Source: Cytophagales bacterium
GTDB lineage: Bacteria; Bacteroidota; Bacteroidia; Cytophagales; Microscillaceae
DNA: 64,000 nt
Assembly: GCA_013298075.1 (NCBI GenBank)
Contig: JAAFJG010000001.1
Coordinates: forward strand, 1-64,000
Direction: 5' to 3'
Shown one piece after another: positions 1 through 34,532 of this stretch. The position numbers and the translations under genes were made by a program. Numbering within the stretch: the stretch's first letter is position 1; the number at the start of each line of letters is the position of its first letter. The notes beneath the pieces were generated by a model that was not told the DNA's origin, searched no databases, and worked only from the letters and a program-made list of their open reading frames with translations.

Positions 1-68
1 ACTTTTAACGACTCAATTATTTTTAATAATTTACTACTACAAACCATAACTAATATAATATTTTTTTG

Positions 69-76
69 CAAAGATA
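69..76 (-). promoter_or_regulatory. Possible outward -7 promoter element
   Basis: On the minus strand this reads TATCTTTG, which fits the Bacteroidota -7 consensus TAnnTTTG. It points left, out of the window, so it may drive a gene before position 1. No TTG is seen at the expected -33 distance, so the call is weak. Confidence 0.35.
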
Positions 77-118
77 ATAAATTTTTGTAAATTATTTCGC
101 TTTTCTTAAGTTAATAGC

Positions 119-190
119 ATTGGGCTAAAGCCAATCGTTGGATTGTATATTATCCTCCAGATAAATCTGGAGGCAATTCAAAAAATATTT
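119..190. repeat. REP-like double-hairpin repeat, copy a
   Basis: First of three copies of a roughly 70-bp dispersed repeat; the others start near 30805 and 32444. It holds a small hairpin (TTGG(G)CT / AGCCAA, 120-134) and a stronger one, CCTCCAGATAAATCTGGAGG, at 154-173 (9-bp arms, 2-nt loop), followed by CAATTCAA. It lies about 34 bp beyond the stop codon of the minus-strand permease gene, so it would be in that transcript's 3' end. Confidence 0.8.
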
Positions 191-4913: not shown

Positions 4914-5210
4914 AATTTAATCGAATATCTAAATCGTTATGTAAAGTTAATCTATATTTTTGAATAAAAGTAATTATTTTAATACATTTTTTTGATTGAA
5001 AGAAAAAATTGGTTTGTGAACGAAATAGATACTAAAAATAATTCCACAATAACTTCTTAAGAACGAGCAAATTTGAAGAAAAATATCAATCAAATCAAAA
5101 ACAAGTAAATAAAATTTTGTTATTTTTTATATAAATTAGCATAAAATTTAAAAAATATGCTATTTTTTGTATATTTTTGTAAAAAAATAATTTTTAAATG
5201 ATACAAAAAA
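4914..5210. other. Divergent intergenic region
   Basis: A 297-bp AT-rich gap between two divergently transcribed surface-protein genes. Apart from the TAnnTTTG element at 5172-5179, no gene, repeat or strong hairpin is apparent. Confidence 0.6.
5172..5179 (+). promoter_or_regulatory. Putative -7 element for the Asp-box protein gene
   Basis: TATTTTTG matches TAnnTTTG and lies 31 bp before the ATG at 5211. No convincing -33 TTG is present at 17-23 bp, so this is a partial promoter match. Confidence 0.45.
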
Positions 5211-13405: not shown

Positions 13406-14095
13406 ATGCACAAATATTATTATATCAAAAATGAAGAAATGTATTTTCCACCTGTGAATACAGCAGATAGACAAGGAATTGTGGCTATTGGGGGAGATTT
13501 ATCGATAGAACGAATTTTATTGGCATATAATTCAGGAATTTTTCCTTGGTTTTCGGAGGGAGAACCAATCTTATGGTGGTCGCCTAATCCTCGTTTTGTG
13601 TTATATCCTCAAAATATCAAAATTTCTAAAAGTATGAAACCAATTTTGAAAAATAATAAATTCAAAATTACTTTTGATACTGATTTTAGAACGGTCATTT
13701 CTCATTGTCAAAATACATTTAGAGAAGGACAAATTGGCACTTGGTTGAGCGATGAAATGTTAGAAAAATATTGTGAATTGCATCAATTAGGTTTTGCTCA
13801 CTCAGTAGAAGTTTGGCAAGATAATATAATTGTGGGCGGTTTGTATGGTTTGGCGTTAGGAAGTTGTTTTTTTGGGGAATCTATGTTTGCGCACGTGAGC
13901 AATGCGTCTAAGGCTGGTTTTATTACTTTGGTGCAAAAATTAGTAGAAAAAAAATTTGAAATCATTGATTGTCAAGTACATACAGAACATTTAGAAAGTT
14001 TGGGAGCAGAAGGAATTATGAGAAATAAATTTATCAATCAATTACAAAAATGTTTAGAAAAACCAACATTGAAAGGAAATTTTTTGAATGAATAA
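13406..14095 (+). CDS. aat: Leucyl/phenylalanyl-tRNA--protein transferase
   Basis: The 229-residue protein transfers Leu or Phe from aminoacyl-tRNA to N-terminal Arg or Lys of target proteins. This creates an N-degron for ClpS/ClpAP. It shows the family signatures G-G-D-L-S-x-E-R-I-L-L-A-Y, then S-G-I-F-P-W-F (residues about 28-48) and W-W-S-P-N-P-R (about 58-64). G-L-Y-G-L-A-L-G-x-x-F-F-G-E-S-M-F lies around 150-166, and D-C-Q-V-H-T-x-H-L-x-S-L-G-A around 190-205. The length is normal for the family. It converges on the thioredoxin-like gene with only 22 bp between the stops. Confidence 0.96.
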   Translation: MHKYYYIKNEEMYFPPVNTADRQGIVAIGGDLSIERILLAYNSGIFPWFSEGEPILWWSPNPRFVLYPQNIKISKSMKPILKNNKFKITFDTDFRTVISHCQNTFREGQIGTWLSDEMLEKYCELHQLGFAHSVEVWQDNIIVGGLYGLALGSCFFGESMFAHVSNASKAGFITLVQKLVEKKFEIIDCQVHTEHLESLGAEGIMRNKFINQLQKCLEKPTLKGNFLNE

Positions 14096-14918: not shown

Positions 14919-15653
14919 ATGAAAAAAACGTTTATTTTATACTATCTATTTTTATTGACACAAACTTTATTTTCTCAAAACAGTCTTACTTTTAGAGAAA
15001 AAAAAATCAATCGTCAACAATTAATTTTTGGAACACTTAGCATTGGTTATGCAAATACAAATCTAATGAAATATAGAAATTGGGCAAAACAAGTCAATTT
15101 ACAGTCAGTAGAAGCCAGTGAAGATTATTTAACTTTTGGTGCAGAAATTGGTGCATTATTCGATGGACATCATTTTCAATTTGAGTTTATGACTTCAGGG
15201 CGCACTTTAAAATCTATTTCTCCTAACTTAACTCAATTTGGTTTGAGATATGGACAAATTATTCATAGTTATAAAAGAATTGATTTTGTTGCTTCGGGAG
15301 GTTTAGGTTATTGTGGTTATGCGATACGTTTTGCAGGTAATCCTCCACCCTATTTGGCTGCTTTACCATATAATCCTGTCAATGCTTATGCTCAACAAAG
15401 TTCTTTCTTGTTTTCTCCTGAGATAGCTATGTTTGTAAGACCTGCCAGTGAAGGTAACTTTTTCTTTGCTTTGAGAGTTGGTTATAACATTGATATAGCA
15501 AGAAGTGTGTGGAAATATGGAACAGACGTGCGAGTAAGAAGTAGCAGAAATGGCTCAAGTACACGATTTATAGGGCAAGAAGTGAGTGGTATTCCAAGTG
15601 GAATAATGCAACAATTTTTATATACAAAATTATCATTTGGATTTGCATTTTAG
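14919..15653 (+). CDS. Putative outer-membrane beta-barrel protein
   Basis: A 244-residue protein with a signal peptide (1-19, ending Leu-Phe-Ser-Gln). The mature part alternates hydrophobic and polar residues in roughly 10-residue strands, for example L-I-F-G-T-L-S-I-G-Y-A and F-F-F-A-L-R-V-G-Y-N-I-D-I. It ends in Leu-Ser-Phe-Gly-Phe-Ala-Phe, a terminal aromatic typical of outer-membrane barrels recognised by BamA. No specific family was recognised. It is a single-gene unit with a large hairpin between its end and convergent prmA. Confidence 0.6.
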   Translation: MKKTFILYYLFLLTQTLFSQNSLTFREKKINRQQLIFGTLSIGYANTNLMKYRNWAKQVNLQSVEASEDYLTFGAEIGALFDGHHFQFEFMTSGRTLKSISPNLTQFGLRYGQIIHSYKRIDFVASGGLGYCGYAIRFAGNPPPYLAALPYNPVNAYAQQSSFLFSPEIAMFVRPASEGNFFFALRVGYNIDIARSVWKYGTDVRVRSSRNGSSTRFIGQEVSGIPSGIMQQFLYTKLSFGFAF

Positions 15654-30553: not shown

Positions 30554-30804
30554 GTCCATTTTATTCTTTAAAAAATTATAATTAGAAAATCTTTGATAAG
30601 TACAAAACTAAATGAGATTGTTTTTGTTTTGATAATCATAATTTTTTTTCGCAATCAAAAATAACCTTTTATTCACAAAAAAAATACGTACAAAAAATTA
30701 GTTTTTTAGTTCTTAGGAAATTATTGCGGAGCTAATTTTGGGTATGTATAAATAGCCTTTTATTTTGAATACGTAGAAAAATATCTATTTGAGAAACATA
30801 AAAA

Positions 30805-30873
30805 TTTGGTTAAAGCCAACGATTGAATTGTATATTATCCTCCAGATAAATCTGGAGGCAATTCAAGAAATAC
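30805..30873. repeat. REP-like double-hairpin repeat, copy b
   Basis: It has the same order as copy a: TTGGTT/AGCCAA, then a longer stem in which TTGAATTG and CAATTCAA also pair around CCTCCAGATAAATCTGGAGG. It ends about 30 bp beyond the stop of the tryptophan dioxygenase gene (minus strand). Confidence 0.8.
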
Positions 30874-30902
30874 ATTTCAAAAAAATATTTTCATTTTCAA
30901 TA

Positions 30903-31877
30903 TCAATTCTCAAAACTATTTATTGTTTTTTCGACCCATTTTTTTCCCCAATTTTCTTTTTCTTCACTCGTCCATAATTCAGGATAAAAAATAATTTTTT
31001 GAAATCTTGGAGGAAGATATTTTTGCCAATTTGTACCACCTGTTGCTTCTACGGCTTCTCCTTTTGGATTTTTGAGATATTTTACGGCGGATTTAAAATG
31101 TGCCAAACGCCAATCTATATTTATCAACGCATCAATATTTTTCAATAATTCGATTGCTTCTTTGGGTCTATCCAATTCTAAAAATATTTGCCAAAGATTT
31201 TTTTGTCTATATTTTTCTGCCAATTCCACAAAATCATTCCTATATTTTTGTTGAAAATGAATCGAAGTAATCGTTTCTTCGCCTGTTTTTTGGTCGCTTG
31301 CTCCTTGTTTCCAATATAAAAAATCAAAAATATTATCAATAGGCTCAGAAAAATCCGCTTTTTCGTGATGTGTATGGGCGAGAATATGCGCAAAATCAGT
31401 CATACAAATTTCTATTTTTCTAAATTGAGCCGACTGAAAACCACTCGAAGGCAACAAAGACATTCTAAATTGTCTAAATTGTTCATATTCCATGCCTTCG
31501 GTCATCACATCAAAAGAAAATATTAGATTTTGTAAATATCTATCAATTCTTTTGATTCTTTCCGTATAAAATTTGGTATTGATAGATTGATGCGTAGCCA
31601 TTTGTTCTAATTCCCATAAAATCAATTTAAAATAAAGTTCTGTAATTTGATGATAAGTAATAAAAATTTTTTCATCAGCAAAATCAGTTTTTGGATTTTG
31701 TAGGCTCAATAAAGTATCCAAATGAATGTAATCCCAATATTTGAGATAATTGGCGTACAAAAGACCTTCCAAATTAGAAATCAAATCTTGTCCTGTGAGG
31801 CTATATTTATCTCGTAATTCTTGTAATTTTCCGACTAATTCAGGCGTGAGTGCCAGCGGTTCGAGTTCATTTTTCAT
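30903..31877 (-). CDS. kynA: Tryptophan 2,3-dioxygenase family protein
   Basis: A 324-residue haem enzyme that opens the indole ring of L-tryptophan to N-formylkynurenine. Diagnostic motifs are Y-H-Q-I-T-E-L-Y-F-K (distal His near residue 76), S-S-G-F-Q-S-A-Q-F-R-K-I-E, W-R-L-A-H-F (likely proximal haem His) and T-G-G-T-N-W-Q-K-Y-L-P-P. The sequence belongs to the Bacteroidota branch, which is longer than the Proteobacterial enzyme. No other kynurenine-pathway gene is nearby. It starts 3 bp after the Hpt gene, so the two form a tight unit behind the TPR kinase. Confidence 0.92.
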   Translation of the reverse strand: MKNELEPLALTPELVGKLQELRDKYSLTGQDLISNLEGLLYANYLKYWDYIHLDTLLSLQNPKTDFADEKIFITYHQITELYFKLILWELEQMATHQSINTKFYTERIKRIDRYLQNLIFSFDVMTEGMEYEQFRQFRMSLLPSSGFQSAQFRKIEICMTDFAHILAHTHHEKADFSEPIDNIFDFLYWKQGASDQKTGEETITSIHFQQKYRNDFVELAEKYRQKNLWQIFLELDRPKEAIELLKNIDALINIDWRLAHFKSAVKYLKNPKGEAVEATGGTNWQKYLPPRFQKIIFYPELWTSEEKENWGKKWVEKTINSFEN

Positions 31878-31880
31878 ACT

Positions 31881-32213
31881 TTATGATTGAAGTTCTTTTT
31901 GCAAAGATATTAGTTCTTTTTCGGATTTTTCGTTTAAATTATTTAATAATTGACTAATTTTTGAAAAATCATTATTTTTACAATTGTCTTGAATTTGTTT
32001 GATAAGTTCTGCCAATTCTACCATTCCTACGGTCAAAAATGACGTTTTTAATTTATGTGCAATAAAAATTATTTCTTCAATATTTTTAATTTGATATGCT
32101 TCGGTTATATTTTTTAGTTGTTCGGGAACGGTTCTAAAAAAAACTTTCAACAAATTTTTCAAAGTTTCTTCATTGTTGCCCAATGTTTTTCTTAAATTAT
32201 CTAAATTATACAT
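31881..32213 (-). CDS. Hpt (histidine phosphotransfer) domain protein
   Basis: A 110-residue single-domain protein, all helical, with the phospho-acceptor His53 in I-A-H-K-L-K-T-S-F. It would relay phosphate between a receiver domain and a final response regulator. No receiver protein is encoded in the window. The TPR kinase upstream also lacks a receiver, so the relay must use partners elsewhere. It overlaps nothing and is followed 3 bp later by the tryptophan dioxygenase gene. Confidence 0.88.
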   Translation of the reverse strand: MYNLDNLRKTLGNNEETLKNLLKVFFRTVPEQLKNITEAYQIKNIEEIIFIAHKLKTSFLTVGMVELAELIKQIQDNCKNNDFSKISQLLNNLNEKSEKELISLQKELQS

Positions 32214-32561
32214 TTTTTATGATTTTGTTTTAGGTTATTTATTTAAAAAATAAATTTTCGCAAAAATAATAAAAACTATTGAAATAAACTTAATTAAGTA
32301 AGTTTTTGTAATAAAAAAAATCAAATTTAAAATATGGACTATTTTAAATTTGAAATCTAATTTTGTGATATTACCAATAAAAATGATATTTATACCATTT
32401 ATTTTAAAATATTGAAAAATATAAATTTGAAAAATATAAAAATTTTGGCTAGAGCCAACAATCGGATTTTATATTATCCTCCAGATAAATTTGGAGGCAA
32501 TTCAAAAAATATAATTCGAGAAAAGTAATTTTATTTTTTCTAAATATTGCTATCAAAAACA
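32214..32561. other. Intergenic region with REP-like copy c
   Basis: A 348-bp AT-rich gap between the TPR kinase stop and the Hpt start. It carries a minus-strand -7-like TATTTTTG (32261-32268) and the REP-like repeat (32444-32510). No gene is seen. Confidence 0.5.
32444..32510. repeat. REP-like double-hairpin repeat, copy c
   Basis: The first stem is perfect here (TTGGCTAGAGCCAA). The second is CCTCCAGATAAATTTGGAGG with one G-T pair, followed by CAATTCAA. It lies about 52 bp beyond the stop of the TPR histidine kinase gene, in the same orientation as the other two copies. Confidence 0.8.
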
Positions 32562-34532
32562 TCAAACAGGAATGGTAAAATAAAAATTAGAGCCTTTGCC
32601 CAATGCACTTTCTACCCATATTTTTCCGCCATTCAAACTAACAAAATCTTTACACAATAACATTCCAAAACCTGTTCCTTTTTCGCCTTTTGTACCTTTG
32701 GTCGTAAAAATAGTTCCTTTAAATATTTTCTCCACATTTTCGGCAGAAATTCCCACGCCTGTATCACTGATGCAACATATCACAAATTTTCCATCTTCAC
32801 TTAATTGTGTGGAAATGGTAATTGAATCCTCTTCATTTGAAAATTTAATGGCATTATTGATTAAATTTCGTATAATGGCTTGTAACATATTTTCATCGGC
32901 TGAGACATTTTTTGCTTTTTGATCAAGTTTTGCTTTAATATCAAGTTTTTTTATTTTATCTAAAAAATTTAATTTTTTGACTTTATCTTTAATAAATTCA
33001 TTGATATTTATCTTTTGAGTTTGTAATATCACTCCTTCTAATTGCGATTTTCCCCAAAACAATAAATCTTCTGTTAGTTTTAGTGTTTTATCAACATTAT
33101 TATTTAATAAAGGAGCCATCATTTTCATTTCTTCAAGAGATAAATTATCACTATTTAACAAGGTTAAAATGCCTTTCAAAGAAATCAAAGGAGAGCGTAA
33201 ATCATGAGAAATCAAAGAAAATAATTTATTTTTAATTTGATTTAGCGTTTGTAAATTATCATTTTGTAATTTTATTTTCATATTTTGTTTGGATAAAATT
33301 TGTGTTTGCGCAGTTATTTTTTGTTTTTGAATCATTAAAAGATTAGTATTTTTTCGATTGACAATATATTTTTGAAATATGATGGCAGCCAATAAAATAA
33401 AAATCAACAAAATTGAAATAACTAAATAAAGATAGGTTTGTTGGTTTTGATTTTGTTTTGTTAATTCATCTAATTCCAAGAGTTCATTTTTATGTTGATA
33501 TTGAAATTTTAATTTTTCTAAATTTTTATTTTTAAACAAATTTTCATATTCTTTTATGGTTATTTCTTTCATTTCACTGTATTCTAATGCTTTTTGGTAT
33601 TGTTTTTTAGTTTTATAAAACAGTGAAGCACAATCATATAACAAGAAAAAAGCACGTAAATTATCAATTTTTTTGTCTAATTTTGATAATAAAATTATTC
33701 CTTCTTCAAGTTTTTCTTTTGCTTTTTCTAACTCATTTTGTTCGATATGAATATTGATAATATCAACCAAAGAAATGATAGCATTTTCTTCTTTTTTAAA
33801 TCTACGACTTATATTTATATCCATTTCGAGTAGTTTTAAAGCTTGTAAATATTTTTTTTGCTTATAATATAACGTTCCTAAATTTCCATTTATCAATCCT
33901 ATCCAAATGGTGTCTTTTTCTACTATTGCATTTTGAAGTGCTTTTTGATAATATTTTTCTGATTTTTCGTAGCCATTTGTCTTAAAAAAAGACATCGCTA
34001 AAGTATTATAAAAATTGGTTATCCATCTTTTATTAGTCATAAATAAATCATTATATTGTTCAGACTTTAACAAATATTTTTTTGTTTCATTAAAATCATC
34101 CACTTTATAAAACATTTGAGCCATATTTACTTGGGCTTTTGCCAAACAATATAAATCGTTATTGATTTCTTTGGTTTGTAAAGCTTTAAAAAAATATTCA
34201 ATCGATAAATCTGTGCCTAATTCATTATACATATATTGAATGCCTAAAGCCAAATATAATTTATAAGATATTTTACTATCATTTTTGTGTGCATATTTTA
34301 AAAAATACAATAACATTTCTTCATTATCTTCTGAACTAATTTGATGACGAACGGCACTATCGCAAGCCATCTCTACTATTTTATCTTTATCAGAAGATTG
34401 ATTAAAACTATTGATGATGTTGGTAAAATATTCTTTTTTATCATATTTTGGTTGCGCAAAACAAGGATAAATAGAAAAACAAGTAAAAATAACCAGCAAA
34501 ATAAGTGTTTTAAAAGTAGAGAATAAATTCAT
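32562..34532 (-). CDS. TPR-containing sensor histidine kinase
   Basis: A 656-residue kinase. A signal peptide (about 1-26) is followed by a periplasmic tetratricopeptide region (about 85-345). One membrane helix (about 371-390) and a coiled coil (about 395-435) come next. HisKA follows with His443 in I-S-H-D-L-R-S-P, then an HATPase with D-T-G-V-G-I and K-G-T-G-F-G-M-L-L boxes. This architecture, TPR sensor then TM then kinase without a receiver, is common in Bacteroidota. It should sense a periplasmic signal through the TPR array. The Hpt and tryptophan dioxygenase genes follow on the same strand after 348 bp. Confidence 0.92.
   Translation of the reverse strand: MNLFSTFKTLILLVIFTCFSIYPCFAQPKYDKKEYFTNIINSFNQSSDKDKIVEMACDSAVRHQISSEDNEEMLLYFLKYAHKNDSKISYKLYLALGIQYMYNELGTDLSIEYFFKALQTKEINNDLYCLAKAQVNMAQMFYKVDDFNETKKYLLKSEQYNDLFMTNKRWITNFYNTLAMSFFKTNGYEKSEKYYQKALQNAIVEKDTIWIGLINGNLGTLYYKQKKYLQALKLLEMDINISRRFKKEENAIISLVDIINIHIEQNELEKAKEKLEEGIILLSKLDKKIDNLRAFFLLYDCASLFYKTKKQYQKALEYSEMKEITIKEYENLFKNKNLEKLKFQYQHKNELLELDELTKQNQNQQTYLYLVISILLIFILLAAIIFQKYIVNRKNTNLLMIQKQKITAQTQILSKQNMKIKLQNDNLQTLNQIKNKLFSLISHDLRSPLISLKGILTLLNSDNLSLEEMKMMAPLLNNNVDKTLKLTEDLLFWGKSQLEGVILQTQKININEFIKDKVKKLNFLDKIKKLDIKAKLDQKAKNVSADENMLQAIIRNLINNAIKFSNEEDSITISTQLSEDGKFVICCISDTGVGISAENVEKIFKGTIFTTKGTKGEKGTGFGMLLCKDFVSLNGGKIWVESALGKGSNFYFTIPV

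Follow-up and report, generated by a model that had tools for sequence, protein, structure and literature searches.

Three double hairpins in a Cytophagales genome, each standing just beyond the stop codon of a minus-strand gene, raised a question: are they REP-like elements whose RNA structure is under selection, as the first-pass annotation of this DNA proposed, or parts of something else? The stretch analyzed (64,000 nucleotides, hereafter the window) opens contig 1 of a draft genome of 4.71 Mb (153 contigs, 97.9% complete; G+C of 29.5% in an 852.5-kb sample). The hairpins had been placed at 119–190, 30805–30873 and 32444–32510, and we verified these coordinates, the stems and the shared CAATTCAA end. 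The stop codons of the minus-strand genes start at 224, 30903 and 32562, and the distances of about 34, about 30 and about 52 bp agree with those reported earlier. All three copies read on the + strand. Copy a (119–190) has hairpin 1 at 120–134, hairpin 2 at 154–173 and CAATTCAA at 174–181. Copy b (30805–30873) has hairpin 1 at 30805–30819 and hairpin 2 at 30839–30858, with a basal stem formed on the + strand by TTGAATTG (30823–30830) and CAATTCAA (30859–30866). Copy c (32444–32510) has hairpin 1 at 32444–32458, hairpin 2 at 32478–32497 and CAATTCAA at 32498–32505. None of 100 shuffled versions of the window contained the 20-bp core. Contig starts lie less than 200 bp from copies in the window (1–190) and at C118:46, C76:192, C80:100 and C23:40; the breaks in the assembly are probably caused by the repeat itself or by a neighboring element.

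The 28-mer core, allowed up to three mismatches, was found at 282 places in the genome, and its backwards control at none. A strict between-genus pattern occurred at 209 places here, and none of 394 other Bacteroidota had more than 11; it was present in 11 of the 395 genomes, this one included. The own-type core (at most one mismatch) was found at 266 places here and at one place in one of 34 other relatives. Both same-genus genomes (91% and 79% complete), neither with a match to the Y1 enzyme described below, had none.

How did the hairpins come to occupy so many places? The answer lies outside them. The sequence TTCTTAGGAAATTTGTGCGGA recurs in inverted orientation on both sides of the core, at fixed offsets. 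At up to six mismatches, the left end was recognized in 52 and the right end in 97 of 134 copies (8 and 2 of 134 in wrong-orientation controls). Both ends were present in 55 of these copies vs. 2 of 1230 random windows, and at the threshold used in that comparison one or both were missing in 79. Intact copies have imperfect terminal inverted repeats of about 23 bp (GGTTCWTRGGAAATTATTGCGGA ... TCCGCACAAATTTCCTAAGAACC); the distance between the ends was 180–223 bp in 53 copies (GG/CC tips uncounted), and the consensus measures 212 bp. Exact 8-bp duplications flanked 17 of 53 copies, where mismatched partners gave an expectation of 0.33; 9-bp duplications were not in excess among the same 53 copies. 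Under a second definition, exact 8-bp duplications were present at 16 of 55 copies (0.61 when shuffled), and duplications agreeing at 7 or more of 8 positions at 24 of 55 (2.5 when shuffled). The A+T content of the duplications was 94%. Among 79 distinct elements ascertained by their ends, a set that includes many loci fetched by the core, 78 held the core (at most 7 mismatches in 28), 54 of them without a mismatch; the alignment omits 4 of the 79 (260 bp or longer).

These elements are short and without a transposase gene, end in terminal inverted repeats and are flanked by a target-site duplication of fixed length, all of which characterize MITEs. Inverted ends together with 8-bp duplications are the mark of insertion as a unit in a DDE-type reaction. 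The double hairpin of about 70 bp, taken at first as the unit, was therefore drawn too small: it is part of an element of about 210 bp. We conclude that the hairpins are very probably carried as cargo by one family of miniature, non-autonomous transposons (MITEs) of this length, with ISL3-like ends and a Y1-derived interior.

The window's three copies are worn fragments of this larger mobile element. Copy a is without the element's left part and retains a degenerate right terminal inverted repeat at 197–219 (TAACTCTTAGAAATTTGTGCGGA on the − strand, with 8 mismatches ungapped). Copy b retains the left one at 30708–30730 on the + strand (AGTTCTTAGGAAATTATTGCGGA, one mismatch to the consensus), and no right inverted repeat was found for it at up to 9 mismatches. 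Terminal inverted repeats were not recognizable on either side of copy c. On the + strand at 32414–32452, this copy has a relic of the C-terminus of a Y1 transposase, EKYKFEKYKNFG followed by TAG, a stop codon that lies within hairpin 1.

Two candidates for an autonomous element were discarded. A 2.1-kb end pair on C123 is actually two separate MITE copies, and a 1407-bp element bounded by terminal inverted repeats (L263:118–1524, G000 C67) holds a BRO-N gene and no transposase. The latter has the same ends as the MITE and, by eye, a duplication matching at 7 of 8 positions. Lone left ends were seen at window position 5065 (−), L060:18918, L066:5516 and L290:4535, with a different interior in common, TTTTTAGTATCTATATTTTTGATG-like; they are perhaps a second element family or the remnants of an autonomous element. 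At L305:451–982, about 320 bp interrupts a MITE copy immediately before hairpin 2. A plasmid search with one element returned one record (30% covered, 79% identity, E 1e-3).

Which enzyme might have moved the element? The end pattern (at most two mismatches) was found 212 times here, 108 times in the sister-genus genome G004, 4 times in the same-genus genome G001, never in G002, and a single time in each of 4 of the 33 remaining relatives; its backwards control occurred once each in 2 of 37. In G001, which has neither the core nor a Y1 match, an end lies 30 bp upstream of the ATG of a truncated ORF that runs into the contig end. The 69 residues of this ORF matched Zn_ribbon_ISL3 partially (20.2 bits vs. 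a cut-off of 25.5; E 7.8e-4) and the NCBIfam ISL3 transposase model weakly (E 0.017; 14.2 vs. a cut-off of 180). Among plasmids, the fragment had 30% and 34% identity to genes of Gloeocapsopsis and Bernardetia, annotated as a helix-turn-helix protein and an ISL3 family transposase, respectively. A search of the draft genome that contains the window (97.9% complete) turned up no ISL3 transposase (PF01610). The search for an autonomous partner thus gave none in this genome and, in G001, an ISL3-like fragment with related ends whose match is below the cut-off. Other ISL3 genes in G001 and G004, partial or running into contig ends, had only distant versions of the end nearby (8 mismatches in L343, 6 in L344 and none nearer than 7 in L345). 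We observed that GGTACTCTGACAATTTTAGTGGG (L343 ~1457–1479, G001 C54) and GGTTGTCTGACAATTTTTGTGGA (L344 ~1456–1478, G004 C287) adjoin ISL3 matches and share with the MITE ends the layout GGT-CT--G--AATTTT-GTGG.

The published ISL3-family transposon Tn7546 has the ends GGGTCTTCGGA and an 8-bp AT-rich duplication, according to the available portion of its description (PMC9782665). As far as that portion goes, the MITE resembles ISL3 elements in its 8-bp duplication and in its GG-tipped ends. Judged from these likenesses in sequence, an ISL3-family transposase is the likely engine that moved the MITE. Because a similar end stands so close to the start of an ISL3-like gene in G001, we infer that the transposase came in trans from an ISL3-family insertion sequence. 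The element would then have spread in this genome until the ISL3 transposase vanished or fell into an assembly gap.

At the G004 loci that we read, related ends bound mostly MITEs of about 121 bp, many of which enclose another cargo, namely two ACAGGCTTCCAGCCTGT-type hairpins in inverted arrangement. Exact 8-bp duplications were present in 11 of 24 rows (some of which overlap), where 0.04 were expected. The same kind of shell thus appears to have captured hairpins in parallel in the sister genus. Exact 11- and 15-mers of the G004 hairpin were absent from the 2.1-kb locus of that genome's own Y1 gene. At the G004 loci L312–L342, the related-end shells enclosed other REP-like hairpins, often as an inverted pair.

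The cargo has a different origin from the ends. We found a single Y1 transposase gene in the window's genome. Its 157-residue product has the ISHp608 transposase as its nearest solved relative (E 7e-5); it exceeds the IS200 cut-off (60.8 vs. 55) and falls far under that of the REP transposase model, REP_Tyr_transpos (30.8 vs. 80). Three inverted copies lie upstream of the gene and two direct copies downstream, and its TAA falls inside the GGCTAAAGCC of the first downstream copy; the locus is without a clear bounding pair of MITE ends. The left flank of dispersed copies resembles the C-terminus of this protein (consensus EKYQFEK..DFG or NFG, then a stop). Over the last 11 codons, 4.8 of 11 residues matched the resident transposase vs. 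0.69 when shuffled (n = 124, those of 136 copies with a recognizable hairpin 1). A stop lies within these codons in 46 of the 124 copies and is absent from 78, and the final glycine codon of the relic belongs to the hairpin itself. The order of the cargo is therefore about 11 last codons, GGCTAAAGCC holding the stop codon, and then TTGAATT-bulge-CCTCCAGATAAATCTGGAGG-CAATTCAA. By this comparison, the interior of the MITE matches the 3′ end of an IS200-like Y1 gene plus its two downstream hairpins.

The same arrangement was sought at 79 named Bacteroidota loci and the resident locus, which together gave 77 readable genes of Y1 relatives. GGC[TC]AAAGCC lies between −8 and +40 of the stop in 51 of the 77, with the stop inside it in 9 of these 51. 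A CCTCC-type hairpin lies within 130 nt in 42 of the 77, and CAATTCA follows that hairpin in 22 of the 42. The proteins are 142–157 residues long; 76 of 77 have Y---Q--HH and 73 have WQ[DE], the HuH motif is DHCH in 68 (with no DH.H match in 9), and none of the 77 has the Y...NP signature. Across genera, the CCTCC-type hairpin beside the transposase gene covaries: 17 cells were changed on both sides, vs. 5.3 when shuffled and 0–7 in slid controls, and in 27 distinct rows the covariation was 0.198 vs. 0.056, a value reached by 0 of 500 shuffles. The number of further pair types was unexceptional in this hairpin (101 of 500 shuffles as high), and the percentage of pairing among these hairpins is inflated, as they were preselected at 7 or more of 9 paired positions. 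The between-genus covariation points to recognition of a DNA hairpin by the Y1 enzyme family.

The association with a Y1 gene invites an alternative explanation: the hairpins could be a canonical REP/BIME family, spread by its own Y1 enzyme (RAYT/TnpAREP) through cut-and-paste of single-stranded hairpins, with copies on either side of the enzyme's gene forming a REPtron. The resident gene with its three inverted and two direct copies is what such a system would look like, and the two same-genus genomes without an enzyme match have no cores. Of the 10 other genomes in which the strict motif occurs, 6 contain a close relative of this enzyme (E < 1e-45; two are broken); the figure is 0 of 17 for motif-free control genomes, which were hand-picked from the listing (best 2.9e-25). 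Moreover, the 79 of 134 copies without one or both ends leave room for Y1 movement of bare hairpins. However, the terminal inverted repeats and 8-bp duplications sit outside the hairpins, and they overturn canonical REP/RAYT transposition as the main engine of spread. The Y1 protein scores as an IS200 rather than as a REP transposase, no GTAG/GTGG guide is visible by eye on either strand at the foot of the consensus hairpin, and the nearest subclass is listed without REPs in the portion of a 2018 survey available to us (PMC6006769). We thus consider this explanation unlikely.

If the hairpins are MITE cargo, why do they lie behind stop codons? We called genes by our own ORF and codon-usage criteria in two sets of sequence. 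The first, 852.5 kb after trimming of overlaps, consists of the window and 40 stretches of 20 kb each; it holds 653 genes, which cover 81.5% of it. The second comprises 55 additional stretches, each centered on copies. The sampled contigs were picked non-randomly from the core-match listing, and the stretch on C82 was chosen for its Y1 gene; placement statistics are based on gap counts and on available base pairs. Only 1 of 137 copies lies inside a called ORF, a doubtful one of 41 codons. Of the 71 copies in the 852.5 kb, convergent gaps hold 18, divergent gaps 4 and tandem gaps 47, and 2 are unclassed; the three kinds of gap make up 17.2, 28.4 and 87.2 kb, respectively. The excess of convergent over divergent placement in this sample has p 3e-5 by base pairs and p 1.3e-4 by gaps of at least 100 bp. 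In the tandem gaps occupied by the 137 copies, CAATTCAA points toward the upstream stop in 55 and toward the downstream start in 33 (p 0.025); the 852.5-kb set alone gave 31 vs. 18 (74 copies, at a looser cut-off). In all, 95 of 135 copies have their CAATTCAA end turned toward a stop. Thus, copies stay out of genes and promoters, and their orientation shows a weak bias and no rule. The constant orientation noticed earlier is true of the window's three copies and does not extend to the 137 copies genome-wide.

This avoidance of genes and promoters would account for the position of the copies behind stop codons. Insertions into genes or promoters would have been purged by selection, so that the survivors lie in convergent gaps and beyond the 3′ ends of genes; their distribution would then reflect survival rather than a rule of targeting.

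The competing explanation is that the repeat acts at transcript 3′ ends, as a terminator, an mRNA stabilizer or a barrier to decay, with its fold under selection. The preference for convergent gaps and the avoidance of divergent ones would suit it, as would the predicted folds of the three copies, which are stable on both strands (z −2.7 to −5.2), and the conservation of the core over the remaining element (see below). On the + strand, the outer stem (TTGAATTG-like with CAATTCAA) closes across an 8-nt bulge in copies a and b and not in copy c; at an ungapped offset, 113 of 137 copies have at least 6 of its 8 pairs. Against this explanation stands, first, the mixed orientation in tandem gaps. 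The pattern of substitutions also fails to support it. Of 136 copies, 119 have a perfect hairpin 2, which shows just one compensatory state overall; its imperfections on the + strand are 12 G-T, 10 A-C and 9 other non-pairs. Hairpin 1, in 124 copies, likewise has one compensatory state, with 12 G-T, 67 A-C and 38 other. Since A-C on the + strand is G-T on the − strand, the imbalance of 67 to 12 in hairpin 1 would favor an RNA, but 59 of the 67 sit in one polymorphic column, which is probably one inherited variant. On the transcribed strand of tandem copies, hairpin 2 shows 6 G-U vs. 8 A-C, no bias in a comparison of few events and low power. Terminator-like sites, defined by a GC stem with a T run immediately after it on the transcribed strand, in the tested 2.4 kb (30600–33000) numbered one, at hairpin 1 of copy c, vs. 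a mean of 0.8 in shuffles, and no Rfam family reached its gathering score within the window. Taking these points together, we regard an RNA element as quite improbable.

These results bear directly on the first-pass annotation. Its argument that variation preserves pairing was not confirmed: the G-T pairs of copies b and c on the + strand are A-C mismatches in the mRNA of the minus-strand genes. The data do not support the view that an RNA structure with a fixed orientation is under selection behind stops, given the mixed orientation, the near-absence of compensatory changes and the lack of a wobble bias on the transcribed strand. The term "REP-like" is apt insofar as the repeats are dispersed, extragenic, linked to a Y1 gene and near gene 3′ ends. 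That annotation had named random orientation, copies inside coding regions and missing covariation as the observations that would speak against it. Orientation and covariation largely came out that way, and the copies nevertheless kept out of coding regions.

One feature exceeds what MITE decay would produce. Among elements recognized by their ends, 22 come from stretches that had not been centered on cores. In these, hairpin 2 plus CAATTCAA diverges from the consensus by 3.9% vs. 14.9% for the interior (paired p 1.6e-4); in G/C columns, the values are 7.6% for the core and 30% for the interior. Hairpin 1 diverges by 9.1% and the two ends by 14.0% and 10.9% in the same elements. A wider set of 47 elements that were not core-directed gave 5.1% for the core and 14.4% for the interior. 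A neutrally decaying MITE does not predict this conservation of core over interior. Possible sources are upkeep or homogenization by the Y1 enzyme, host selection or use, or a young core in old shells. Of the 51 exact cores in the 852.5 kb, 7 also show tandem expansions of 21–22 bp, in which half a hairpin is joined to CAATTCA (e.g., L049:4894–4975, 13901–13992 and 15431–15507); by eye, tandem arrays of a similar kind adjoin the Y1 gene in other genera (L085, L087 and L135).

Could two enzymes have been at work? An ISL3 transposase might have moved the shell, with the resident Y1 enzyme still rewriting or homogenizing the hairpin within existing copies. The slow divergence of the core, also in G/C columns, the expansions ending in CAATTCA, here and beside the gene in other genera, and the between-genus covariation all argue in this direction. 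Yet the action of the enzyme shows no direct sign, host selection or subfamily structure of the shells may explain the conservation, and replication slippage can produce the tandem units. A hybrid of this kind is a tentative possibility, doubtful on present evidence. The same degree of doubt applies to its central element, that the Y1-born cargo is a live substrate, copied or corrected by the resident Y1 enzyme inside hundreds of dispersed, ISL3-moved shells. The conservation of a hairpin inside decaying shells in any case poses a choice between upkeep by an enzyme and use by the host.

How does the MITE family, as we prefer to read these hairpins, compare with known systems? Like REP/RAYT, it has high-copy, dispersed, extragenic hairpins and one Y1 gene with flanking inverted copies; unlike REP/RAYT, it has inverted ends, target duplications and an IS200-like enzyme, and no GT[AG]G guide was seen at the hairpin foot. 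Its ends, which start GGTTCTT, and its 8-bp AT-rich duplications recall the ISL3 family of insertion sequences and their non-autonomous derivatives, whereas its cargo is foreign to ISL3 and no ISL3 transposase was found in this genome. The accessible text of PMC3733652 describes REPs overlapping the 3′ end of Y1 genes ("3′ov"), GTAG REPs that give TAG stops to flanking ORFs, and TIRYT/TIRtron arrangements, i.e., Y1 genes flanked by terminal inverted repeats, some of them as repeat families. With TIRYT/TIRtron as described there, our system has in common the combination of a Y1 gene with inverted repeats within a single mobile system; it differs in that its ends bound scattered copies with 8-bp duplications and the resident Y1 gene is without a clear end pair. 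In the sections at hand of PMC5896051 and PMC10969869, QMITE2 of Coxiella burnetii is a MITE of 150–190 bp containing a REP, with terminal inverted repeats and 7–11-nt direct repeats, located mostly in 3′ untranslated and intergenic regions, and its truncated copies resemble bare REPs. The likeness, to the extent of those sections, is close: a short MITE bounded by terminal inverted repeats, direct repeats, a REP inside, a position at gene 3′ ends and truncated look-alikes of bare hairpins. By the same sources, the REP of QMITE2 belongs to the GTAG type and serves IS1111 as an insertion target, whereas the hairpins here are those of a Y1 3′ end without GTAG; moreover, the ends here are ISL3-like and the phylum is different.

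REP-containing MITEs behind genes, REPs overlapping Y1 3′ ends and Y1 genes flanked by terminal inverted repeats are therefore already known, as far as the available texts describe them. Among the open-access journal papers listed, judged by listing and abstract, there was no match for stop-codon hairpins in this Y1 subclass and none for ISL3-type MITEs carrying such hairpins. The present case shows how a REP-like family can be a MITE in disguise, its worn copies without ends mistaken for bare hairpins behind stops. The 2018 TnpAY1 survey (Quentin et al., PMC6006769), in its available part, lists subclass 1.2 without REPs. To judge from sequence signatures, the Y1 transposase here is nearest to that subclass, and we do not assign it as a proven member: like subclass 1.2, the 77 relatives belong to Bacteroidota, are 142–157 residues long and, with few exceptions, have Y---Q--HH and WQ signatures, whereas their HuH motif is mostly DHCH vs. 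DH[IV]H in the survey's table. Unlike the subclass as described there, 51 of the 77 relatives have a hairpin at the stop codon. Y1 transposases near a supposedly repeat-less subclass are in this way linked, in many Bacteroidota, to a double hairpin, conserved and covarying, at the stop codon of their own genes, which makes substrate binding and cutting by the enzyme directly testable. Were the two-enzyme reading true, the IS200-like subclass described as REP-less would gain its missing substrate across Bacteroidota.
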